From positions 1-64,000 of the forward strand of contig JACUUH010000002.1 in assembly GCA_014859375.1 (NCBI GenBank): a stretch of DNA of 64,000 nt. The letters run 5' to 3'. Below, piece by piece: positions 7,605-34,680 of the stretch (its first letter is position 1; each line of letters begins with the position of its first letter). The stretch is from Gammaproteobacteria bacterium. Lineage in GTDB: Bacteria; Pseudomonadota; Gammaproteobacteria; Nitrosococcales; Methylophagaceae. The position numbers and the translations under genes were made by a program. The notes under the pieces are model-generated. The model was given only the letters and a program-made list of their open reading frames with translations. It did not search any database and was not told where the DNA came from.

Positions 7605-9727
7605 TTAGTATTTTAAATCAAGTGTTAACTCAACACTACGGGGTTCTCCTACATAATATTGTGTGCCTGATCCTACATAAGCATAAAGTTTGTCAGATAA
7701 ATTTCGTCCACGTAATGTCACATCAAGATGAGAATCGACCCTGTAGCGCGCATAGGCATCAAAAAGAGTGTATGGCGGTAGATACTGTGTATTGGCGTTA
7801 TTAGCTTTAACCGAATCGACATAACGAGTACCAATGCCTAGATCCCAATCTAAACTTGGTTCACTGATTAGCCATAAGTTGGCCACACGTTTAGGAACAT
7901 TCGATGGCGTATTGCCAGCACGTGACACTCCTCCTTCAAAGAATTGATCGTATTCAGCATTGACAAAGGCAATGTTGCCATCGGCACGGATTTTTGATGT
8001 AAATTCAAATGAAGAAGCAAGCTCAATACCTTTCGATGTTTGTTGTCCAACCTGTAGGAATTGAGAGTTATCATTCGGATCGCGCACCAAGAAATTTTCT
8101 CGTACGATATGGTATGCAGCTATCGTGGCGCTACCACGATCATCCAAATAATTGAACTTGGCACCGATCTCAATCTGACGACCTTTACTGATATCAAAAT
8201 TGTCGATAGTACTATTACTAGACGTTGTTAATGTTCCGCCTGGTGGCTCAGACGAGGTGCTATATTGGCTATAAACACTGACATCATCATTGAGATCAAA
8301 CACCAATCCTACGCGACCGGAAAAGGTATCCCATTGACTGGTAGTTGCAGTACTTCCTGGTGACTTGATTAACCTGAAATCGATGTGGTCATAACGAAGT
8401 GCTGTTACTAAAGATAAGCGATTAGTTAAACCTTGGCGGTTCTCAATAAATGCAGATAGCATCTCAACGCGATTGCTACGTCCTTGTTGCAGAGCACCAA
8501 TACCAAGATCGCTAAAATTGCCTGGATCAAAGTTAAAGGGATCAATCACATCAAATACACCAGAGGAGGTTGGAAAGCCGGTATGGTGGTTGACGTTATA
8601 ATCTAAACCAAAAGCCCAATCACTACGCTGATTAAACAGTTCGCCATTATGAGTTAATTCAATGCGGTCTCCAGTCATTTCTTGTTCATGGCGTTGTTGT
8701 AAACCTGAAGAGCGAGTAATTGTAGAATTGGTACTGTTATAGGCATACCCTTCTAAATTACGGTAATCACGCTCAGCTCGGTAATGGTAAAAGGTTTTTT
8801 AACAGAGGTGTTAGTGTTTAGCTGATAGTCGGTAATAGAACGCAACCAACGCACACGTTGCTCATAAATACCATCTTTAACATTGTAGTTTTTATATCGC
8901 GTATTTTTGTCGATAGTTAATTTGCCGATTTGAGGTCGCAGTGTAGGTGTTCCCCAATATGGGTTATCCACTTGCTCTTCCTGATATTCAAAAGCTAGGG
9001 TATGCGTGAGATTATCAGTGATGTCACTTAGCCAGGAAAACGCCATACTGTCTGATTGGCTTTCATTTCGATCAATATAACCATTACTTTCAGCCTTACT
9101 GTAGTCAAAACGGATCCAGTTATGATCATTTAAGGCCTGATTAATTCCGACAGCAACTTTTCTGGTATCAAAACGGCCATAACTAAGTTGCCCGGTAATT
9201 TCGTGATCCTTACGTTCTGCCGTTTTGGTCACATAGTTTAAACTACCACCGACCGAACTTGCGCCATATAAAAATGATGATGGGCCGCCCACTGATTCAA
9301 CGCGATCATAAAGCCATGAATCTACAGGTCTAGCTGCAATAACATAAGCAAGAGGGATCCCGTTGAATAAATGATTAACTTGCGAACCGGTAAAGCCGCG
9401 TAATGATGAAAAAGCACCCCGACCAGGAAATTTAGCAAGATTGACCCCAGGTAAGATATTGGCAACATCTTGTAGATCACGAGCACCAATTTGGTTCATT
9501 ACTACTCTATTGGCAATAGCAACCGAAGCAGGATTTTCTTTTGCAGATAAACCTAATCTGGAGCCAGCTAGTGTCGGCACATCTAAATCAATGAGTGATG
9601 ATTGATGCGTGCCAGTGACAACCAGTGTTGATAATTTATCGACATCATCGGCAATACTGGTATCAGCATAAGCCTGCGATAGTATCCCTATTAAAATAAT
9701 GCTTAAAGCTGTCGGTTTTATTGACAT
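7605..9727 (-). pseudogene. TonB-dependent siderophore receptor, frameshifted
   Basis: Two adjoining reading frames make one receptor. The N-terminal part (to about residue 310) has a signal peptide, TonB box (LSTLVVTGTH), plug and first barrel strands. The C-terminal part (frame of 7605-8678, open back to the junction) carries the remaining barrel and the terminal LDLKY. The frames join at an A6 run on the coding strand (T6 at 8795-8800): adding one A gives a continuous frame reading KKTFYHYRAERDYRNLEGYA, so a one-base loss from an A7 tract is the simplest explanation. The likely start is the ATG at 9725-9727, with GGAG upstream. The repaired length would be about 707 residues. The PepSY gene follows directly and is also damaged. 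Confidence 0.85.
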
Positions 9728-9802
9728 TACGTTCTCCAAATTAATCCTGGAGGCATTGTACAAGTAGCTAAAACCTATAAATATGTTATTTGATTTTTGT
9801 TT

Positions 9803-10559: not shown

Positions 10560-11957
10560 TTATTCGACCTGGTCATCACGTTGCGAGCGAGCATATCGAA
10601 TGGCAGAACGTACTTGATTCGGCGCCGTACCACCAAGGTGATCGCGGGCAGCAACTGAACCTTCTAGCGTTAATACCTCAAACACATCTTCATCGATTTG
10701 ATCAGAAAATGAGCGTAATTCATCTAGGCTAAGTTCAGATAAATCTTTGTTATGTTTGATGCCATACGCTACTGATAACCCAACCACTTCATGCGCATCG
10801 CGAAAAGCAACACCTTTACGAACTAGATAATCAGCTAAATCTGTCGCTGTCGCATAACCACGTAATGCCGCAGTTCGCATATTGTCAGGCTTGACGGTAA
10901 TTGCTGCCATCATGTCGGCATAAACACGCAATGAGCCTAATAAAGTATCGATTGTGTCAAAAAGAGGTTCTTTATCTTCCTGATTGTCTTTGTTGTAGGC
11001 TAAAGGCTGATTTTTCATCAAGGTCATCAGGTTAAACAAATTGCCATAGACACGGCTGGTTTTACCACGAATCAATTCAGGTACATCCGGGTTTTTCTTT
11101 TGCGGCATGATCGATGAGCCGGTGCAGAAAGCATCGCCCAAATCAACAAAATCAAATTGAGCAGAAGACCAGATAATCAGTTCTTCTGAAAAGCGAGAAA
11201 GATGCATCATCAAGATCGAGGCAAAGCTATTAAATTCAATCGCAAAATCACGATCACTGACCGCATCAAGCGAATTTAAACAAATACGATCAAACCCGAG
11301 CAATTTAGCGGTTAATTCGCGATCAATAGGGAAGGTTGTTCCTGCCAAGGCCGCTGCACCTAATGGCAATGAATTAACGCGTTTTGCACAATCTTCTAAA
11401 CGTTCAGTATCACGCACTAGCATTTCGTACCAGGCCATCATATGGTGACCAAAGGTGACAGGTTGCGCAGTTTGTAAATGAGTAAAGCCGGGCAGAATGG
11501 TATCTGCTTCTCGTTCAGCCACCACTAGTAATGATTCTTGCAGTCTGAACAACTCTGACTTTATAGGTCGTATCATATCACGTAAGTAAAGCCTTACATC
11601 TGTTGCAACTTGATCGTTACGAGAACGGCCAGTGTGTAGTTTTTTACCCACTTCACCGATAAGACTAATAAGGCGTGCTTCGATGTTCATATGCACATCT
11701 TCTTGTGCGATTGACCACTGAAATTGATCATTGTCTATTTCAGTTTCGATCGCTTTCAAACCTGAAATAATCTGATCACGTTCATCGTCAGTCAGGACAT
11801 TAACACTCGCAAGCATCGTGGCATGGGCGATCGAGCCTTCAATATCTTGCTTATACATACGTTGGTCAAATTGGACTGATGCGGTGAATTGTTCAACAAA
11901 GGCATTGGTTGGTTGAGTCAGGCGTGCAGAAGACAATTTTTTGTTAGGTGATGTCAT
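10560..11957 (-). CDS. argH: Argininosuccinate lyase
   Basis: The 465-residue enzyme splits argininosuccinate into arginine and fumarate, the last step of arginine synthesis. The fumarase/aspartase superfamily signature is intact ([12 protein letters not shown]), as are TGRSRNDQ and [12 protein letters not shown]. Length is typical for the family. It is divergent from hemC, an arrangement shared with Pseudomonas. Start at ATG 11957 fits the family N-terminus. Confidence 0.97.
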
Positions 11958-12104: not shown

Positions 12105-13034
12105 ATGACCAACAGAATAGTAAAAATTGCTACACGTAAAAGTGCATTAGCATTGTGGCAAGCTGAATATGTACGCGATGCACTGATTGCGCATCATCCT
12201 GACTTGCAGGTTGAGCTGGTTAAGATTAGCACGCAAGGTGACAAGATTTTGGATGTGCCCTTGGCTAAAGTGGGCGGAAAGGGTTTGTTTGTAAAAGAGC
12301 TGGAACAAGGTATGTTGGCTGGCGATGCTGATATTGCGGTGCACTCGATGAAAGATGTGCCGGTTGAGTTTCCTGAAGGACTACATTTACCGGTAATTTG
12401 TCAACGTGAAGACCCTCGCGATGCGTTTGTATCAAACAATTTTGCATCACTTGATGATCTTCCCCACGGTGCCAGAGTCGGAACTTCAAGTTTGCGGCGC
12501 GAATGTCAGCTTCGAGCAAGCCGTCCTGATCTGACGATTGTATCGTTACGCGGCAATGTCAACACGCGTTTAGCTAAGCTGGATGCCGGTGAGTACGATG
12601 CGATTATTTTGGCAGCTGCCGGATTAAAACGTCTAGGATTTGAAGATCGTATTCGCAGAGCATTAACACCTGAACAAAGTTTGCCCGCGATTGGCCAAGG
12701 TGCGGTTGGGATTGAAACCCGTGTTAATGATGATGAAATTAATGCCTTAATAGCGCCCTTAAGTTGTGTTAAAACAACGATAGTTGTTAAAGCAGAACGA
12801 GCAATGAATAAGCGTTTAGCTGGTGGCTGCCAGGTGCCGATTGGCGGTTTTGCATTATTAAATGGTGATGAACTGTGGTTGCGAGGCTTAGTTGGTCGGC
12901 CCGATGGCACCGAAATGTTATATGCGCAAGTGAGAGGCAAAGCTGACGATGCCGAAGTTTTAGGTATTCAACTTGCAGAAGATTTATTATCACAAGGTGC
13001 GGATAAAATTTTGGCAGATGTCTATGGTAGCTAA
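12105..13034 (+). CDS. hemC: Porphobilinogen deaminase (hydroxymethylbilane synthase)
   Basis: The 309-residue enzyme joins four porphobilinogen units into hydroxymethylbilane in the haem/sirohaem pathway. The N-terminal [14 protein letters not shown], the HSMKDVP segment and the dipyrromethane-cofactor cysteine in [11 protein letters not shown] are all present. It is the first gene of a hemC-hemD-hemX-hemY run and overlaps the hemD start. Confidence 0.97.
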
Positions 13035-24251: not shown

Positions 24252-24614
24252 TTATGCTGAGAAAGATGAGCCACAGCCGCAGGTAGTGGTTGCATTAGGG
24301 TTTCGAATAACAAACTGAGAACCTTCAACACCATCGGTGTAATCAATTTCAGCACCTACCAAATACTGATAACTAGATGGATCGATTAGTAAGGTAACAC
24401 CCGCTTTTTCAACTTGCGTGTCACCCTCACTAATTTCTTCTTCAAATGTAAAGCCATATTGAAAGCCAGAACAGCCACCGCCAGTAATAAACACGCGAAG
24501 TTTTAGTGCATCATTACCTTCTTCTTTAATTAAATCACTGACTTTATTTGCTGCTGCATCAGTAAAATTAACGGGGCTAGGCATTTCAAACTGACTTACT
24601 ACTGCACTATTCAT
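24252..24614 (-). CDS. erpA: Iron-sulfur cluster insertion protein ErpA
   Basis: 120 residues from the ATG at 24614; a TTG 12 bases upstream is in frame, but GGAG sits just before the ATG. A-type carrier with the three cluster-binding cysteines (CSGFQYG and CGCG near the end). It passes Fe-S clusters to target enzymes, including isoprenoid-pathway proteins. Its neighbours, bactofilin, DUF6776 and argC, match the order in Pseudomonas. Confidence 0.96.
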
Positions 24615-24666
24615 AATGGACTCCAAAATTTAGATTTATGTGCTTAGTATGTAAAAACCAAGCAAA

Positions 24667-25122
24667 TTAGTCAAGATTAGACTTTTGTTCTAATTGAAAT
24701 GTTTCGCTGTCTTCGATAGTTTGATGGGCCAGATCAAGAATATTTTCATTATCACTGCTGATACGGATGAGTTGACCATTTACTTCTGCGCCTATCACCA
24801 TTTCCAGCATTCGGTAATAGACATTACCTTGAACTTTGGCTTTCGGCGCCAATTCTACATGTTCGGTAGCATATACGTTACCGGTTATAGTGCCATTGAT
24901 GACCAGGTTCGGCACTCTTATCTCGCCTTCAATGGAGCCTAAATCACTTAACGTCAGTACCGATTCGTTATCGCCCATCGCATTAACATTGCCAACAATA
25001 TTACCGTCGATGCGTAAACCACCGCTAAAGCTGATATCGCCTTTAATGTGAGTATATTGTCCAATTAACGTATCAATTCGAACGGATTTAGCTCTGTTTT
25101 TGCTTTTTCCTTTGTTAAACAT
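24667..25122 (-). CDS. Bactofilin-family cytoskeletal protein
   Basis: 151 residues with the bactofilin (DUF583) beta-helix core, seen as repeated strands (THIKGDISFSGGLRIDG, LVINGTITGNVYATEHVEL), between short polar tails. Bactofilins polymerise without nucleotide and position envelope or cell-shape proteins. It probably forms an operon with the membrane protein just upstream (14-base gap). Its partner here is unknown. Confidence 0.92.
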   Translation of the reverse strand: MFNKGKSKNRAKSVRIDTLIGQYTHIKGDISFSGGLRIDGNIVGNVNAMGDNESVLTLSDLGSIEGEIRVPNLVINGTITGNVYATEHVELAPKAKVQGNVYYRMLEMVIGAEVNGQLIRISSDNENILDLAHQTIEDSETFQLEQKSNLD

Positions 25123-25136
25123 AATAGGCCTCTACG

Positions 25137-25826
25137 TTAGTTTTGCTTAGCAATTTGCCAATCAAAGGTTTGTGATAGGGTGATTTTTTTATTTTGTTTT
25201 AAAGTCACTGTGATGCTGTTGGGAGTAGTGTCGTCAACCAATTTCAACGTGCCTTCAATCATTTGCACATGGCGCAAGTTAAGCTGATGTTCGCTGATTA
25301 CGTCGTGTTTGTCTGTGTCATAGTTCAAAGTTAAAGTAATTATGCCCGTTAACGGTTTAGTAATTCTTTCGCCTTGGGTGATAACGATTCGATAGCTAAT
25401 ATTTTCAGGCTTATCAGTTGCGATTGCATTGAGTTCCAATTCTCGAATTTGCAATTTACTGGAGGCGTTGCCTTGAGTAATGGTTTGATAAAACATTAAT
25501 TCTTTGTTGAGATGAACCACTTTGTTTTGAAGCTCATCAAGCCGGCGTTTTAACTGTGTATCGGTTTCGTTTTGAATAGCTATAAACTGATTTTTGTCTT
25601 CAAGCTCATGCTGCATCGATTTAAGCTGTTGTTGCAAGTGTTGGTTTTGATTCGATAGCTGTTGCTGCTGCTGTTTTAGTTGTGATAATTCTATAAATAG
25701 CGACTCATTCGTTTGTGTTAAATAAAACCAAATCAACACTGAGGTGAGCAAGACTGCAACCGTAACAATGATCAGACATCGATACGGTTTGGGTTGGTAA
25801 ATAACGTGTTTTGCCAGTGACGACAT
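25137..25826 (-). CDS. Coiled-coil inner-membrane protein (DUF6776-like)
   Basis: 229 residues: one membrane helix (about 17-36), a long Gln/Leu-rich coiled coil (about 42-115), then a periplasmic beta-rich domain. The start abuts the end of argC. The same gene order, argC, this protein, bactofilin, erpA, occurs in Pseudomonas, so I place it in the DUF6776-type family by context and shape. It may anchor or oppose the bactofilin polymer across the membrane; this is inference. Confidence 0.75.
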   Translation of the reverse strand: MSSLAKHVIYQPKPYRCLIIVTVAVLLTSVLIWFYLTQTNESLFIELSQLKQQQQQLSNQNQHLQQQLKSMQHELEDKNQFIAIQNETDTQLKRRLDELQNKVVHLNKELMFYQTITQGNASSKLQIRELELNAIATDKPENISYRIVITQGERITKPLTGIITLTLNYDTDKHDVISEHQLNLRHVQMIEGTLKLVDDTTPNSITVTLKQNKKITLSQTFDWQIAKQN

Positions 25827-26855
25827 TTATGGCAGCGCTGCAATAGTGTTGATAGCTAATGTTTCATCGAAGCCAAACATGATGTTCATATTCTGAACCG
25901 CTTGGCCTGATGCTCCTTTCACTAAATTATCAATCACCGATAATACCACCACCGTATCACTATTTTGGGGTTGATGAATGGCTATCCGGCAGGTATTGCT
26001 ACCACGAACACTACGAGTTTCAGGGTGAGAGCCAATAGGCATTACATCAACAAACGGTTCATCGGCATAACGCTGTTGATATAATGCTTGCAGATCACAG
26101 TCCTTAGTCAGTCTGCCATATAAGGTTGCATGGATACCGCGGATCATTGGGGTTAGATGTGGTACAAACGTTAAGTTTACAGCCTTGCCGTAAGCACCTG
26201 ATAAGCCTTGCTCTATTTCGGGTAAGTGACGATGACCGGCAACGCCGTAGGCCTTCATGTTTTCTGAGGATTCAGACAATAAGCTGGCAACAGCTGCTGT
26301 TCTGCCTGCACCACTAACCCCCGATTTAGCATCGGCAATCAGGTGTAATGGATCAATTACGTCATTTTCTAGCAAGGGAAGAAATCCGAGTTGAGTTGCA
26401 GTAGGGTAGCAACCAGCAACAGCAATTAACTGGGCAGATTTTATTTGTTCACGATTTATTTCAGGCAAGCCATAGACGGCAAGATCGAGCAGTTCAGGAC
26501 AGCTATGAGGCATGTTGTACCACTGTTCCCATTGTTTGGCATCTTTAAGTCTAAAGTCTGCTGACAAATCAATGACACGAGTTCCACGCTTGATTAATTC
26601 AGGCACCATTGCCATGGCGACACAGTGAGGTGTTGCAAAAAATACCACATCACAACTAGCTAATTGGTCTACATCGGGCTCACTAAAGCACAGATCGACA
26701 AAACCACGAAGATTGGGGAACATATCAGAGACGGGCATGCCTGCTTCTGCACGAGATGTAATGATTTTTAATGTCACTTCAGGATGCGTTACAAGCAGAC
26801 GTAATAACTCTACTCCGGTGTAGCCTGTCGCGCCTACAATGCCAACATTAATCAT
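25827..26855 (-). CDS. argC: N-acetyl-gamma-glutamyl-phosphate reductase
   Basis: 342 residues; the NADPH-dependent third step of arginine synthesis. The N-terminal Rossmann loop [14 protein letters not shown] and the active-site cysteine in [12 protein letters not shown] are present; length is typical. It heads a minus-strand block with DUF6776, bactofilin and erpA. Confidence 0.97.
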
Positions 26856-26906: not shown

Positions 26907-29555
26907 CTAAAGCGAAAGGATTTGACGATTGTTCAGTAAGTTTTCGAGGTGTTGTTTGAAAATAAGATGATCGTGAGTAGTTGTTATTGGTGTGGTTTGC
27001 TCAAATGTAAGTTCGGTAATGTAGAGTGAAAAAGAACTGGATGATTTACGCAAACTAAGCATAAATTGCGATACTTGATCAAATAATGCTGCGTCGTTGG
27101 CTTTGCCACTAAACTGTTTGGGTCCACATTTTATTGTGCATTGTGAGTCAGTTTTTACCTGTTCCATTTTAACTTGAACTGGGAGATAGTTATGTGTGGT
27201 ATCAGGTGACGGAAGAGCTAATGCTTTCAACGACCACTCACCGTAGATGTTATGTAATTTATAAAAATGCGGTTTACTAAGATGTTGGGTGGCAGCTACA
27301 GCAGATAGAAATTGATTCAAATTAGTCAGCAAAGTAGCTTCTTTTAATGTTGAAAAATGTTGTTTATCGAGGTGCCCAAGTTCATCAACAATATACACAT
27401 CGATCTGTGATTTTTGGGTATCAATAAACACACGTATTTGCTGTCGATTTTGTTCCTTTAGTAACAATCGATAAAGACCTTCATGATCCAAATTCTCATC
27501 AACATGGGTGGCATAAAATTCATTTCTAGTCAGAGATAAGATGGTGTCGAGATCATAACGACGAGCATAAAGCGTGGCATCGACATGTTGCTGTTGCCAT
27601 TGGATTCGGCATAATTGGTCACCTACTTCAAGAATGTAGATGCCATTTTTTGGTGCATGTTGAACCTGCTCAGATAGATGCTGGCACAGCGTCGTTATTC
27701 TTTTATTAATATTGCTGGCAAAAGACGGTGTTGGACACCAACACTCTACATAATTTTGTTGTGAAGTAGGTGAGTGCCAACGAACAAAATTGGCAAGGGT
27801 TTCTCCCACTGCATTGACACTATCATTATGCAAGTAGTGCCATGTATTATCTTTTGAACGCGTTATTACCTCTAAACACAAGATCATATTTCGACGATGA
27901 TAACCATAATTTAGCGGATCGCGAAGACGGAGAGCTAGTTTTATATCTTGCTGTTTATAGGCTTGTTTAGGGGTGATCTCTGTATTAGCAAATACTAGCC
28001 AAATTAAATTTTCATCTGATGGCGGCATCGTTACCAAAGGCGATTTGACTAACTGCTCAATCAAGCTATAAAGCGTCGTTGTCGACACATCACTATTATT
28101 TGAAAGTAATTTAACACGGGTATATTTGGACAGCGCACCGTTAATAATCGCCCATGCAACAGTAAGTAATAACGAAGCGCTAGTATATAACGGAGAAAAG
28201 CCTTGATCTTTTTTTAGCGTTGTTCGTTCAATTTCATTGATACGCCATTGTCTGTTTGCCGAGTCAAATTCAATAAATAGTATATCTTCAGAAACGTCAG
28301 GTATCAGCGACGGAGGTAAACATGGAATAACATCAGGAGGACTATCAAACAGATCTTGAAATGCTTTTTGTAGTAATACAAACTTTTTTGACGCATCTGG
28401 AGCTGAACTTTTTATTACCCCACTAAGTGTGCTGTTGAATTGTTGTGTCAGGGTTTTGGTCAGCTTAAATTCATCTAAACGTTGACGGATTTGTGCCTGA
28501 TTGCGCTGATCTAATTCGGCTAATTCCTGGTTATTCCATTGCCATTGATTAACAAGATCGGCCATATTGTCTCGCCGCCAGGGAAACCGTGGCGATGTCA
28601 CTTTGGTCGATAAGCGTTCATTAGCCAATAAATAGAGTGAACGCTGGAGATAGGGGATAAATTCAGATGGGATCTCTTCTGAGACCAACTCATATTTTAA
28701 TATAAGAGGTTCACAGAAAAAGGTATTGGTCTCTTTGCTATATATAGCTTGTTTATAGCGGGGTGACAGCCATAAATTGTCCGAGAGATGATCGAGTAAG
28801 GTTTGCTGAAAAAATAACTCGAGATAGCAAGGCAGTCCATAATTCAAGGCAGCTAAACTTGCTTTAATAGCGGTATCAACAAGCACGGATGCCGAGTGCT
28901 TTTCTAAAGGACCAAAGTCAAGAATAGCGGCATCGACGGCAGGAGCAGAAACTAACTGTCTTGCATGGGTTTGATAGTCTAGCTCTTGTTCGGGCGAAAG
29001 CAACCACCATAAAGGAATACTGCCAGCCAGAATAAGTCCGCTACTGTAAAACCTGTCTAAATCATCGGATTCAATTTTATATTCTTTGATAGCAGTATCA
29101 TTGAGCAATCGAGCATTCAGTTTTATTCCCAACGATTTTGCCAGGCTAATACTATCGTGTAATTTAGTTTTGAGTAATTGGATCTGCTGTTCGGTATTGT
29201 CCGAACAATAGATTAGCCATAAATCAAACTGAGGATCATCTGGATAATACAAGGCACCAATATCATTTATCAGGTATAGACCTTGAATCGGATAGTGTCT
29301 AAAAGCATGTTTGGAATAAGAAAGAGTGGGATGATTTTTCTTGGCGAGGGCTAATAGCTTATTACTTGGCTGATAGTCAACGATGCCAAATGGTGCACCT
29401 TCAACATAACATGGCAAAGCCGAATCATTAGACTGAAAAATTAATGGTAAAAATTGTAAAAAAGTCTGATGTGCTGATGGTGCTAACTCAAGCAATCGCT
29501 CAATCCTGGAGCGATTGTGAGCATTAAATAATTTTGTAACTTCGATTAGATCCAT
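26907..29555 (-). CDS. Class I adenylate cyclase homologue, degenerate active site
   Basis: 882 residues that align along their length with class I (CyaA-type) adenylate cyclase: LRLA-like N-terminus, an AKSLGIKLNARLL segment, DRFYSSGLILAGSIPLWW, the LEKHSASVLVDTAIKAS helix, WRRDNMADLVNQWQW, and the C-terminal regulatory half (IDVYIVDELG). The catalytic signature, GSTSSVGQS followed by SDLDIW in E. coli CyaA, is replaced near residues 92-113 by an unrelated stretch ending PQFDLW; the glycine-serine loop is gone and only one of the two metal-binding aspartates (Asp111) remains. It is probably not a cyclase in the normal way. It follows purH on the minus strand. The comparison uses remembered CyaA sequence. 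Confidence 0.82.
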   Translation of the reverse strand: MDLIEVTKLFNAHNRSRIERLLELAPSAHQTFLQFLPLIFQSNDSALPCYVEGAPFGIVDYQPSNKLLALAKKNHPTLSYSKHAFRHYPIQGLYLINDIGALYYPDDPQFDLWLIYCSDNTEQQIQLLKTKLHDSISLAKSLGIKLNARLLNDTAIKEYKIESDDLDRFYSSGLILAGSIPLWWLLSPEQELDYQTHARQLVSAPAVDAAILDFGPLEKHSASVLVDTAIKASLAALNYGLPCYLELFFQQTLLDHLSDNLWLSPRYKQAIYSKETNTFFCEPLILKYELVSEEIPSEFIPYLQRSLYLLANERLSTKVTSPRFPWRRDNMADLVNQWQWNNQELAELDQRNQAQIRQRLDEFKLTKTLTQQFNSTLSGVIKSSAPDASKKFVLLQKAFQDLFDSPPDVIPCLPPSLIPDVSEDILFIEFDSANRQWRINEIERTTLKKDQGFSPLYTSASLLLTVAWAIINGALSKYTRVKLLSNNSDVSTTTLYSLIEQLVKSPLVTMPPSDENLIWLVFANTEITPKQAYKQQDIKLALRLRDPLNYGYHRRNMILCLEVITRSKDNTWHYLHNDSVNAVGETLANFVRWHSPTSQQNYVECWCPTPSFASNINKRITTLCQHLSEQVQHAPKNGIYILEVGDQLCRIQWQQQHVDATLYARRYDLDTILSLTRNEFYATHVDENLDHEGLYRLLLKEQNRQQIRVFIDTQKSQIDVYIVDELGHLDKQHFSTLKEATLLTNLNQFLSAVAATQHLSKPHFYKLHNIYGEWSLKALALPSPDTTHNYLPVQVKMEQVKTDSQCTIKCGPKQFSGKANDAALFDQVSQFMLSLRKSSSSFSLYITELTFEQTTPITTTHDHLIFKQHLENLLNNRQILSL

Positions 29556-29577: not shown

Positions 29578-31143
29578 CTAGTGTCTAAAATGACGCATGC
29601 CAGTGAATACCATTGCAATACCATGTTCATCGGCTGCCGCAATCACTTCATCATCTCGCATTGAACCGCCCGGTTGAATAACGGCGCTAATTCCCGCTTC
29701 AGCTGCCGCATCTAAACCATCACGGAACGGGAAGAAGGCATCAGAAGCCATAACTGCTCCTGGCACCGTTAAGCCTGCATCATTAGCTTTGATTCCGGCA
29801 ATACGGCTACTGACTACACGACTCATTTGGCCGGCGCCAATGCCAACGGTTTGTTGGTTTTTAACATAGACAATCGCATTGGATTTAACAAACTTAGCAA
29901 CACGCCATGCAAATAAAAGATCAGACATTTGTTCTGGTGTTGGCGCTTTTTGGGTGACAACTTTTAATTCGTCTGCTGTCACTAATGCGGTGTCACGATC
30001 TTGTACTAATAAACCGCCAGTCACACGTTTGTAATCTAAACCTTGAGCGTGTTGTTGTGGGAATGCACCGCAGCAAAGTAGGCGAACATTCTTTTTAGTG
30101 CTAATGACTTCTATGGCTTGTTCACTGATAGCAGGGGCAATAATGACTTCGACAAATTGGCGATCAATAATAGCGTGTGCCGTTTCGGCATCTAATTCTC
30201 GATTAAACGCGATAATGCCGCCAAATGCAGAAGTTGTATCAGTTTGGTAAGCCAAATCATAGGCTATTAACAGGTTATCAGCTGTTGCAACACCACATGG
30301 GTTAGCATGTTTAACTATCACACATGCTGGTGATTCTGGAAATGCCTTAACGCATTCCAATGCGGCATCGGTATCAGCAATATTGTTGTAAGACAAGGCT
30401 TTACCTTGCAGTTGAACCGCTGCACCAATCGTACCTGTTTCTGGTGCTTTTTCAGTATAAAAAGCGGCCTTTTGGTGAGGGTTCTCACCATAACGCATTT
30501 CTTGTGCTTTATGGAATTGGGTATTGAAGGTGCGAGGGAAATTCACTTTGTCAGCACCCTCAGTCAAAGTGCCAAAATAGTTTGAAATAGCACCATCATA
30601 ATGGGCAGTGTGTTCGAATGTTTTAATGGCTAGATCAAAACGGGTTGCATCATCAACACCACCATTTGCTTCGATTTGGTCAATTACCCGTGAGTAATCA
30701 GCAGGATCAATTAATACCGTCACTGAGGCATGATTTTTAGCGGCAGCACGTAACATAGTTGGGCCACCGATATCGATATTTTCAATCGCCATTGCCAAGG
30801 TGCAATCATCACGCGCAATAGTTGCTTCAAACGGATATAAGTTAACAACAACTAAATCAATCGGAGCAATATCGTGTTCTGCCATAATAGCTTCATCAGT
30901 GCCGCGACGACCTAATAAACCACCATGAATTTTAGGATGTAGAGTTTTGATGCGGCCATCCATCATCTCTGGAAAACCAGTATGTTCAGATACTTCTTTT
31001 ACTGGCAAACCTGCTTCTTGTAGTAACTTTGCCGTACCACCGGTTGATAGTAATTCAACGCCAAGGCGAGTGAGTTGTTGTGCGAGTTCTAGTACACCCG
31101 TCTTATCTGAAACGCTAAGTAAGGCGCGTTGGACTTTGTTCAT
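29578..31143 (-). CDS. purH: Bifunctional AICAR transformylase/IMP cyclohydrolase
   Basis: 521 residues, the last two steps of IMP synthesis. The N-terminal cyclohydrolase ([31 protein letters not shown]) and the C-terminal transformylase ([16 protein letters not shown]) are complete and end MRHFRH. It lies 31 bases after fis, in the frequent dusB-fis-purH order. Confidence 0.98.
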
Positions 31144-31174: not shown

Positions 31175-31465
31175 TTATAAGCCGTAAGCTTTTAATTTTT
31201 TGCGTAAGGTGCCACGGTTGAGACCCAAAATCTCGGCGGCACGACTTTGATTGCCTTGAGTGTGCTCTAAGGTCGCTCGTAATAAGGGCGCTTCGACTTC
31301 ACTTAATAACATTTCGTAAAGATTGGCAGCACTATGACCATCAAGGTGTTTGAAATAGGTTTTTAATGCAACTTCAACACATTCACTGAGTGGTGCATGG
31401 GTGCGTTCAGCGTCAACTGCAAGGTCAAAGCAGGCTGTTATCTGCTGGTCTTGTGGATAACTCAT
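31175..31465 (-). CDS. fis: Nucleoid-associated regulator Fis
   Basis: 96 residues; Fis bends DNA, activates rRNA and other promoters and aids recombination. The C-terminal helix-turn-helix ([19 protein letters not shown]) is typical. Its ATG overlaps the dusB stop by four bases (ATGA), so translation is coupled as in the dusB-fis operon of enterobacteria. Confidence 0.96.
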
Positions 31466-32463
31466 GCTGCCAAGGTATCCTGTTGTTGCAGTTGAGCAAA
31501 AAAGTGTTCGGTAAACTCGAGTTGTTGCTGCGCTGTGTCCAAGGTGTTGATGTGTTGACGAAATGGATTGCCATTTCGTAAGCCTTTACTGTACCAGGCA
31601 ATATGTTTTCTCGCCATTCGGACACCCGTGTATTCACCATAGAACGCATACAATGTAGCGAGATGTTCAAGCAATGTCTGTCTTACTTCATTCAAACAAG
31701 GTGCTGCTAAAAATTGGTTATAGTCCAGATAATGTTGAATTTGTTTGAAAATCCAAGGGTTTCCTTGTGCAGCTCTACCGATCATGATGCCATCAGCATG
31801 GGTGTAGTCAAGGATCTGTTTCGCTTTTTCAGGTGTTGTGATATCGCCATTGGCTATGACAGGTATGGCTATGGCAGCTTTAATTTCAGCAATTGTGTCA
31901 AACTCGGCCTCGCCTTTATAAGCACAGGCACGTGTGCGTCCATGAACTGCAAGTGCTTGAATGCCAGTGCTTTCAGCTATTCGGGCAATGTTTACACCAT
32001 TGCGATGTTGCGGATCCCAACCAGTACGAATTTTTAAGGTGACGGGCACATCAACGGCTTTAACTACGGACTCTAGAATTTGAGCTACCAGTTTTTCATG
32101 TTGCAATAAGGCCGACCCCGCCATCACATTACAAACTTTTTTAGCCGGGCAACCCATATTGATATCGATAATGTGAGCGCCTTGCTCGACATTATGTTGG
32201 GCAGCTTCAGCCATCATATAGGGATCCGTCCCGGCAATTTGCACACTGCGCGGTTCAGGTTCACCATCATGATTAGCACGAAGTAATGATTTTTTACTTG
32301 CCCACAACATTTTATTTGCAGTGATCATTTCAGATACTGCCATACCGGCACCTAAGCGGCGACATAATTGGCGAAACGGGCGATCTGTCACACCTGCCAT
32401 AGGTGCTAAAAATAAATTATTTGGCAGTTGATAAGACCCAATTTTAAACACAGATTTAGTCAT
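31462..32463 (-). CDS. dusB: tRNA-dihydrouridine synthase B
   Basis: 333 residues; a flavin enzyme that reduces uridine to dihydrouridine in tRNA. The signatures LAPMAGVTDRPFR, NMGCPAKKVCNVMAGSALL (catalytic Cys in that block) and IMIGRAAQGNPWIF are present. Overlaps fis by 4 bases and prmA by 8. Confidence 0.97.
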   Translation of the reverse strand: MTKSVFKIGSYQLPNNLFLAPMAGVTDRPFRQLCRRLGAGMAVSEMITANKMLWASKKSLLRANHDGEPEPRSVQIAGTDPYMMAEAAQHNVEQGAHIIDINMGCPAKKVCNVMAGSALLQHEKLVAQILESVVKAVDVPVTLKIRTGWDPQHRNGVNIARIAESTGIQALAVHGRTRACAYKGEAEFDTIAEIKAAIAIPVIANGDITTPEKAKQILDYTHADGIMIGRAAQGNPWIFKQIQHYLDYNQFLAAPCLNEVRQTLLEHLATLYAFYGEYTGVRMARKHIAWYSKGLRNGNPFRQHINTLDTAQQQLEFTEHFFAQLQQQDTLAA

Positions 32464-33331
32464 GTTTCAGACCTGTTAATCGGATCCATTCTTCTTTTTG
32501 TACAGGTGGATTCATATCAAACCAAGCTTGGTAACGTTGGCTGACCATATCTGCTTGTGTATCTAAAATGCCGGACAAGACTATCGGTGCGCCGGTTTTG
32601 GTTAGTGCCGCTAAACGCGGTGCTAAAGACTGTAATGGTCCTGCCAAGATATTGGCAAGTAATAGGTCGCAAGCTAGATCGGGGCATTCATCGGGAAAAT
32701 AGGTGTCGATTTCTACACCATTACGTGCTGCATTAGCTTGTGTTGCTTCCAAAGCTTGTGGATCGGTATCGACGCCAATTACTTTGTTGGCACCAAGCAA
32801 TGCTGCTGCGATCGCTAAAATGCCACTACCACAGCCATAATCAATAACATATTTGTCTGTGACATCAGCTTGATCGAGCCAGTTAAGACATAATGCAGTT
32901 GTAGGGTGTGTGCCGGTACCAAAGGCCAGACCGGGATCTAACATGATATTGATGGCATGTTTGTCAGGTGGCGTTTGCCAGCTTGGACAAATCCACAAAC
33001 GATCACCAAAATTAATAGGATGGTAATTATCCATCCATTCTCTTACCCAATCTTTATCTTCAACGGCTTCAACACGATAGCGTGGTAACGCAGTGGGCGC
33101 CATTAAGCCAGTTAATAATGTAATAACTGAGTCAGGATCGGTTTCGGCATCAAACAAAGCGACGACATCAGTCGATGACCATAAAGGTGTTGTGCCTAGC
33201 TCTGGTTCGTAGATGGGTTGATCTTGATTATCTTGAAATGTGATCGCATCAGCACCGCACTCTGACAGCATATCTGATAGGTGATCAGCAGCGTCAGGCG
33301 TACTGTTGAATATAAATTGAATCCAGGCCAT
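32456..33331 (-). CDS. prmA: Ribosomal protein L11 methyltransferase
   Basis: 291 residues; methylates L11 using S-adenosylmethionine. The SAM-binding motif DYGCGSGILAIAAA, the preceding GTGTHPTTALCL and the NILAGPL motif are in place. It lies between dusB and accC, the common gammaproteobacterial order. Confidence 0.97.
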   Translation of the reverse strand: MAWIQFIFNSTPDAADHLSDMLSECGADAITFQDNQDQPIYEPELGTTPLWSSTDVVALFDAETDPDSVITLLTGLMAPTALPRYRVEAVEDKDWVREWMDNYHPINFGDRLWICPSWQTPPDKHAINIMLDPGLAFGTGTHPTTALCLNWLDQADVTDKYVIDYGCGSGILAIAAALLGANKVIGVDTDPQALEATQANAARNGVEIDTYFPDECPDLACDLLLANILAGPLQSLAPRLAALTKTGAPIVLSGILDTQADMVSQRYQAWFDMNPPVQKEEWIRLTGLKHD

Positions 33332-33339
33332 GGTGAAAG

Positions 33340-34680
33340 TTATAGCCCCAGTTTCTTTTCAAGATAGTGGATATTAGTGCCACCCTCTTGGAAGTGGGTA
33401 TCATCCATAATACTTTGTTGAAGGGCGACATTGGTTTTGATGCCTTCAATGCCAATTTCATGCAATGCCGTTTTCATTCGCGCGATAGCTGATTCACGCG
33501 TTGTGCCATAAACAATCAATTTACCGATCAATGAATCATAGTTAGGTGGCACACGATAGCCACTATAAATATGTGAATCCATACGGATGCCGGCACCGCC
33601 TGGAGCATGGTAATGCGTGACTAAACCGGGACTAGGCATAAATGTTTTAGCATCTTCAGCATTAATACGACACTCAATAGCATGACCACGAATAACAATA
33701 TCATCTTGAGTTAACGATAAGGGTAATCCCGAGGCAACACGAATTTGTTCAGCGACTAAGTCAGTATCAGTCACCTGCTCGGTAACAGGGTGTTCTACTT
33801 GAATACGAGTATTCATTTCAATGAAATAGAATTCACCATCTTGGTATAAAAATTCAAACGTACCTGCACCACGGTAGCCAATACGAACACAGGCATCGGC
33901 ACAGATTTTACCCATACGAGCGCGTAATTCAGGTGTGATGCCAAGCGCTGGCGCTTCTTCTAATACTTTTTGATGGCGACGTTGCATTGAGCAATCACGT
34001 TCACCTAAATGTATGGCATTGCCGTGTTGATCGGCTAATACCTGAAATTCAATGTGACGTGGATTTTCAAGGAATTTTTCCATGTAAACCATATCATTAG
34101 CAAAGGCTGCTTTTGCTTCGGCACGCGTCATCGCAATGGCATTTAGCAGATGCGCTTCACTGTGTACTTCACGCATACCACGACCGCCGCCGCCGCCAGA
34201 TGCTTTAATAATAATGGGATAACCAATGTCATGAGCCAGACGAATATTAGTTGCATCATCATCGCCAAGTGGACCATCGGAACCTGGCACACAAGGCACA
34301 CCAGCTGCTTTCATGGCGGCAATGGCTGACACTTTATCGCCCATCAAGCGAATGGTTTCTGCTTTGGGTCCGATAAAGATAAAACCGCTGTTTTCGACAC
34401 GTTCAGCAAAATCAGCATTTTCTGATAAAAAACCATAGCCAGGATGGATGGCAGAAGCATCGGTAATTTCAGCAGCACTAATAATTGCCGGTACGTTCAA
34501 ATAACTATCAGTGGAAGCAGCAGGACCGATACATACGGTTTCATCTGCGAGTAAAACGTGTTTTAAATCACGATCTACATCAGAGTGAACCGCGACGGTT
34601 TTAATGCCAAGCTCTTTACAAGCACGAAGGATACGAAGTGCAATTTCACCGCGGTTAGCAATGACTATTTTTTCAATCAT
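33340..34680 (-). CDS. accC: Biotin carboxylase subunit of acetyl-CoA carboxylase
   Basis: 446 residues; ATP-grasp enzyme that carboxylates biotin on AccB, the first step of fatty-acid synthesis. The N-terminal [14 protein letters not shown], the glycine-rich ATP loop GGGGRGMR and [14 protein letters not shown] are intact. It follows accB by 56 bases in one operon. Confidence 0.98.

Follow-up and report, generated by a model that had tools for sequence, protein, structure and literature searches.

Results

A CyaA-like Gene Lies between purH and argC

The window, by which we mean the whole 64,000-nucleotide stretch of DNA that was analyzed, contains an 882-codon open reading frame at 26907-29555 on the minus strand, which ORF calling, profile searches, and alignment identify as a class I adenylate cyclase homologue that lacks the active site. 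The first-pass annotation had given the same coordinates, and the frame indeed runs without an internal stop. The gene lies in a tight co-directional block with the order accC-prmA-dusB-fis-purH-[gene]-argC-DUF6776-bactofilin-erpA, all on the minus strand. Directly upstream, across a gap of 22 bp, is purH (29578-31143), with fis, dusB, prmA, and accC beyond it (31175-34680). Directly downstream, across a gap of 51 bp, is argC (25827-26855), followed by the DUF6776, bactofilin, and erpA genes (24252-25826). The downstream order is shared with a sister family, in which accC, prmA, and purH are also found. A promoter and terminator scan gave only chance-level signal.

Elsewhere in the window argH (10560-11957, minus strand) adjoins hemC (12105-13034, plus strand). 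The first-pass annotation had remarked on this arrangement, the place near hemC being the usual one for cyaA in enterobacteria. It is no anomaly and carries no weight, because the intact cyaA of the sister family sits between purH and argC as the window gene does, making this the local cyaA slot. A 336-residue open reading frame at 8753-9763 covers only the beginning (positions 3-206) of a 649-position model for TonB-dependent siderophore receptors and is possibly a truncated receptor.

The Protein Is a Full-length CyaA Homologue without the Catalytic Site

The window protein is a full-length member of the class I adenylate cyclase homologous family. The match to NCBIfam model NF006984 spans residues 4-876 (E 2.9e-98, 330 bits), and Pfam models PF12633 and PF01295 were matched with 93 and 129 bits, respectively, both above the cut-off of 27. 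The full-length resemblance to CyaA seen in the first-pass annotation, including the C-terminal half, is thus borne out. Both Pfam models were also matched by each of the 31 aligned rows in the profile search. The NF006984 cut-off is 1300 bits, however, and the window protein scores well below the equivalog thresholds set for intact cyclases.

Residues S103, S113, D114, D116, and W118 of E. coli CyaA are essential, as established by mutagenesis, and the C-terminal half of that enzyme is regulatory. In the window protein the position of the G-S...S-D-x-D signature is taken by residues 94-113, ending PQFDLW (29217-29276, minus strand). Alignment with active cyclases places N97, D98, P108, and Q109 at E. 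coli G102, S103, S113, and D114, while D111 and W113 preserve D116 and W118, in agreement with the earlier claim that the signature loop and one metal-binding aspartate had been replaced. No signature motif was found elsewhere in the window protein, the alignment to cyclases being collinear throughout. There is a second lesion, which the first-pass annotation had missed. A loop of 12-13 residues carrying Gly175 and Gln178 in E. coli is missing at about residues 156-163 (29067-29090, minus strand; edges approximate), and E185, K260, and other residues are replaced.

The same losses extend across the family of the window organism. All five of G102, S103, S113, D114, and D116 are kept in 17/17 reference cyclases, namely that of E. 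coli K-12, two sister-family enzymes, and 14 others. Among 34 distinct full-length family copies, 17 retain none of the five, 15 retain one, and two retain two. Gly102 is lost in 34/34 copies and D114 in 33/34; the loop with Gly175 and Gln178, which are invariant in active cyclases, is deleted in 34/34; E185 is kept in 0/34, and K260 is lost in every copy. A near-invariant new asparagine stands at position 102 (33/34). Position 116 is acidic in 28/34 copies (16 Asp, 12 Glu) and T, S, G, or Q in the other six, and the position of E. coli D300 is acidic in all 34. Because acidic residues are retained at 116 and 300, the family proteins may still bind a metal or nucleotide to some extent. The positions shared by 16 or all 17 of the active proteins split clearly by type: invariant polar residues such as K260 are lost from the family, whereas structural Trp, Gly, Pro, and Tyr residues are kept, with P58, G60, K136, Y187, G195, W200, W464, and N557 present in 34/34 copies.

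From these substitutions we infer that the window protein most likely makes no cAMP.

Distribution, Integrity, and Origin

The CyaA-like gene was found in 48 of 57 genomes of the window family (Methylophaga and relatives), mostly as a single copy, and in 31 of the 36 good genomes. Named carriers are M. thiooxydans, M. sulfidovorans, M. aminisulfidivorans, M. muralis, and M. lonarensis; metagenome-assembled genomes are also among the carriers. Of the 48 copies, 39 read open for 840 residues or more. Some of the nine shorter copies lie at contig ends (G011, G046), and some have stops or frame changes (G008, G021, G023, G036). In one of these genomes, G021, both the CyaA-like gene (L161) and crp (L132, L137) are in pieces. 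Among the 36 good genomes the gene is absent from five and broken in at least four; being missing or broken in at least nine, it is not essential everywhere, and in those genomes it is dispensable and perhaps slowly decaying. In six gene-less genomes (G004, G026, G027, G029, G033, G056) argC follows directly after purH. Of the other three, G003 has purH without argC next to it, G024 has a contig that breaks off within purH, and in G042 no purH was found.

A search at the level of the order found intact cyclases in two of six sister-family genomes (G058 and G060; 242 and 236 bits to PF12633), in both cases between purH and argC. The other four have no class I cyclase, and purH is followed by argC. 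All copies from the window family form one clade with support of 100 in the C20 tree. Grouping of this clade with the sister-family CyaA was not rejected (p-AU 0.52) but is absent from the C20 tree, so that orthology rests on position. The intact sister-family cyclases in the same slot indicate that the window gene is, as judged by this position, a cyaA orthologue in which the active site was lost in place.

A sample of the whole class was searched for similar proteins. PF12633 was matched by 116 of 370 genomes, with a bimodal score distribution in which 109 of the 116 lie at 189-269 bits. The remaining seven comprise three genomes of the window family (G000, the genome of the window, with G021 and G049), three of a family that we designate f121 (G181, G360, and G425; 83-94 bits), and one sub-cut-off match. 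The window family and f121 were the only sources of low-scoring full-length class I homologues in this sample. The f121 proteins are full-length homologues of ~900 residues without the signature (L144:5562-8258, L145:3900-6593, and L146:3648-6344). The two degenerate families stand apart in the C20 tree and are joined in the LG tree, with a long-branch warning. The f121 gene adjoins a double-receiver response regulator gene in L144, and a similar open reading frame is present in L145.

Selection, Conservation, and Fold

Nei-Gojobori dN/dS values were 0.096-0.195 in eight close family pairs with dS under 1.2, and 0.089-0.243 when the two parts of the protein were taken apart. Two of the ten family pairs that were run had a dS that was infinite or above 2 and were left out. 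The intact sister-family pair gave 0.118. A ratio under 1 means that the protein is constrained and does not indicate its function. The selection that the first-pass annotation had deduced from the uninterrupted frame is supported by these ratios and is of the purifying kind.

Within-set identity in the family versus the active cyclases was 0.423 versus 0.480 for the core and 0.317 versus 0.407 for the helical region (201-400), but 0.354 versus 0.279 for the C-terminal half. Residues 401-882 (26910-28355, minus strand) are thus relatively more conserved in the family than in active cyclases. This shift of conservation from the catalytic and helical half to the C-terminal half is no more than indicative, the family and reference sets differing in evolutionary depth. 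Several C-terminal residues, for example N524, W653, and Q702, are invariant in all 34 copies.

An AlphaFold2 model of the window protein had a mean pLDDT of 87.7. In VIA-align comparisons residues 13-384 (28404-29519, minus strand), which include the helical part, matched AadA nucleotidyltransferases with a Z-score of 9.6 (223 aligned residues, rmsd 6.0); a model of the intact homologue L104 scored 12.1 in the same comparison. Foldseek matches to solved nucleotidyltransferases had E values of 0.02-0.1. With moderate confidence the model therefore predicts a retained nucleotidyltransferase-like fold. No sequence relative of the window protein was found in the PDB. The C-terminal half gave weak fold matches to actin-like/ASKHA and RNase-H-like folds (3hrg, pantothenate kinases, Ppx/GppA, and MreB; E 0.009-0.02 at best), and these were seen with both the model of the dead protein and that of L104.

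Other Possible Sources of cAMP

The first-pass annotation had suggested a search of the genome for an intact cyaA and for crp. No second class I cyclase, and hence no intact cyaA, was found in G000; crp is present. Class III cyclases were matched in two of 57 family genomes and in none of the 36 good ones. A class III enzyme was rejected as the cAMP source, the matches being confined to these two genomes, one of which (G030) lies exactly at the cut-off. Across the 57 genomes a single strong class III match was found, a CHASE2-class III cyclase in G001 (L071:4227-6440). At least one CYTH protein is encoded in 52/57 genomes. For the CYTH protein encoded in G000, no NCBIfam class IV cyclase model gave a match, and the closest relative with a solved structure is an inorganic triphosphatase; assignment of the protein as a class IV cyclase is not supported.

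The Receptor Carries D-helix Substitutions

CRP (NF008732) was matched in 53 of 57 family genomes, in 45 of them over the cut-off. Forty-eight complete proteins were used, with G002, G011, G021, G039, and G042 left out as weak, split, or partial. For comparison we took CRPs from 26 of the 28 genomes that encode an intact class I cyclase (intact-cyclase genomes), G063 and G362 having no over-cut-off match. An OsmC-like gene lies beside crp at all 23 of the loci inspected in the family and the sister family (L061-L064, L113-L131), at 28/29 others (L195-L223), and in E. coli; because of this shared neighbor we take the family protein to be CRP proper. The DNA-recognition residues R180, E181, and R185 and the ligand residues E72 and R82 are kept in 48/48 family CRPs.

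The D-helix is altered. Residue 144 is Ala in 25/26 intact-cyclase CRPs, versus Glu in 34, Ala in six, Lys in four, Thr in two, and Met and Arg in one each of the 48 family CRPs. Residue 148 is L, I, or M in 26/26 intact-cyclase CRPs and is none of L, I, M, or V in 45/48 family CRPs. All 48 family proteins are changed at 144, 148, or both, compared with one of 26 intact-cyclase CRPs. On the tree of all 83 CRP rows the change at 148 requires two steps and that at 144 five, and the 48 family CRPs are therefore not independent events. The CRP of the window genome, encoded outside the window (G000:C21:44284-44910; L073:2099-2944), has Lys83, Glu144, and Gln148.

In the three f121 genomes and four of the sister family, each with class III cyclases, CRP residues 144 and 148 are unchanged. 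A further sister-family genome, G062 (L117), has neither a class I nor a class III cyclase, and its CRP carries G141D, A144N, and Asp83; it is a possible independent case of a receptor of this kind. An exception is G001, which has a class III cyclase yet a changed CRP (L124). As a marker of lost cAMP binding, Ser83 is only suggestive and gave way to residues 144 and 148, since 4/26 intact-cyclase CRPs also have no Ser or Thr there. An association between loss of CRP and of the CyaA-like gene in the 36 good genomes (Fisher p 0.04) was set aside because it ignores relatedness and is mixed with genome reduction.

Discussion

We consider it probable that the CyaA-like protein of this family is catalytically dead and has been selectively retained. 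A vertically inherited CyaA would have lost the glycine-serine loop, the first metal-binding aspartate, and the substrate loop in the family ancestor, while the rest of the CyaA body stayed under purifying selection as a pseudoenzyme. The C-terminal half may still serve as a sensor or binding module that contacts a partner; such a role is suggested by the shift of conservation to this half. That the pseudoenzyme acts specifically as a sensor through protein contact is put forward tentatively and with less confidence. The first-pass annotation had proposed a non-cyclase role as a regulator or binding protein. Its premise, loss of the cyclase reaction together with purifying selection on what remains of the protein, is supported; the role itself is plausible from the sequence, and no partner or ligand was found.

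Were the gene a functionless relic, with the cyclase having died in the ancestor and the copies now eroding in the purH-argC operon, its absence from 9/57 genomes, the breaks in G008, G021, G023, and G036, and the closure of the gap between purH and argC in six gene-less genomes would all be expected. Against this, 39/48 copies are full-length despite deep divergence (the window protein is 27-38% identical to 23 relatives), dN/dS is 0.10-0.20, like that of the intact sister pair, and the C-terminal residues N524, W653, and Q702 are invariant in 34/34 copies. We regard simple decay as unlikely.

Continued catalysis is the least probable reading. A site rebuilt around D111 and the acidic residue equivalent to D300 might make cAMP or another nucleotide product; in its favor are the retained fold, the new near-invariant Asn at position 102 (33/34), the acidic residues kept at 116 (28/34) and 300 (34/34), and E72 and R82 of CRP, kept in 48/48. 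However, every copy has lost Gly102, E185, K260, and the loop with G175 and Q178, 33/34 have lost D114, position 116 is T, S, G, or Q in six of 34, and the D-helix changes of CRP are of the kind associated with cAMP independence. It is also improbable, though somewhat less so, that cAMP comes from another enzyme that the CyaA-like protein regulates or to which it is unrelated. CYTH proteins in 52/57 genomes, the class III cyclase of G001, and the four to five class III cyclases of f121 genomes that have a degenerate CyaA would fit such an arrangement; the triphosphatase relationship of the G000 CYTH protein and its want of a class IV match, together with the absence of class III enzymes from all 36 good genomes, do not. 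Moreover, f121 and four sister-family genomes, which do encode class III cyclases, show no CRP D-helix changes.

The preferred reading, a dead but retained CyaA, may be part of a larger change. The textbook example of a regulatory circuit in bacteria is CRP-cAMP, and both its halves appear to have been altered together across the family, with a cyclase that is dead but kept and a receptor carrying A144E, a substitution selected in E. coli without cya. By analogy with the E. coli mutants the family CRP would be active without cAMP, and a cAMP-free CRP circuit would fit the data except for G001. The family could then be a natural "cya-minus crp*" system, in which cAMP was abandoned in the ancestor, CRP was rewired through the D-helix (perhaps to another nucleotide), and CyaA persisted as a signaling protein without catalytic activity; we hold this synthesis to be a credible possibility but not an established one. 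The cultured carriers offer a natural system for asking what the CRP regulon does without cAMP, and what the large C-terminal half of CyaA does apart from catalysis. There is also a consequence for annotation, as the family genes match cyclase models and are likely to be labeled adenylate cyclase.

In the portions of the open-access literature covered by our search, no report was found of a Methylophaga class I cyclase, of a catalytically dead class I cyclase, or of a CRP circuit free of cAMP with a retained CyaA body. According to two reviews (PMC8879981, PMC9214030), laboratory evolution of E. coli for growth on methanol favored a mutation in cyaA, with lower TCA-cycle activity as its presumed effect. 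A natural methylotroph family without cyclase chemistry would be a suggestive parallel to this, and is not evidence of cause.

The systems closest to the one described here are the CyaA proteins of E. coli, the sister family, and f121, and the CRP* mutants of E. coli. E. coli CyaA (PF12633 and PF01295) is collinear with the family protein over its full length and shares its nucleotidyltransferase-like N-terminal half, its C-terminal half, and its structural residues; the family protein differs in having no glycine-serine loop, first aspartate, or G175/Q178 loop and in scoring far below the equivalog cut-offs. Sister-family CyaA (G058, G060) occupies the same slot, purH-X-argC-DUF6776-bactofilin-erpA, but, unlike the window protein, keeps all five signature residues and the loop. 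The f121 proteins resemble those of the Methylophaga family in being full-length class I homologues without the signature (83-94 bits to PF12633), but they have a different local deletion and different gene neighbors, and their genomes encode four to five class III cyclases each and a CRP unaltered at 144 and 148.

For the receptor, a study of E. coli without cya reports that the crp mutations of evolved isolates were mostly A144T (67%) and A144E (17%), and that the A144T protein shows partial cAMP independence and a response to cytidine (PMC8497467). Aiba and colleagues, as cited in PMC6603298, identified positions 53, 62, 141, 142, and 148 in a strain deleted for cya, and L148R is a characterized mutant (PMC6157895). 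The family CRPs resemble these E. coli CRP* proteins (A144T/E, G141D/S, L148R) at 144, where 42/48 differ from Ala and 34 have the A144E substitution itself, and/or at 148, where 45/48 are changed (PMC8497467, PMC6603298, PMC6157895). They differ from the E. coli mutants in that the altered D-helix is the native state and is accompanied by further D-helix and pocket changes at positions 83, 84, 128, 131, 145, and 146.
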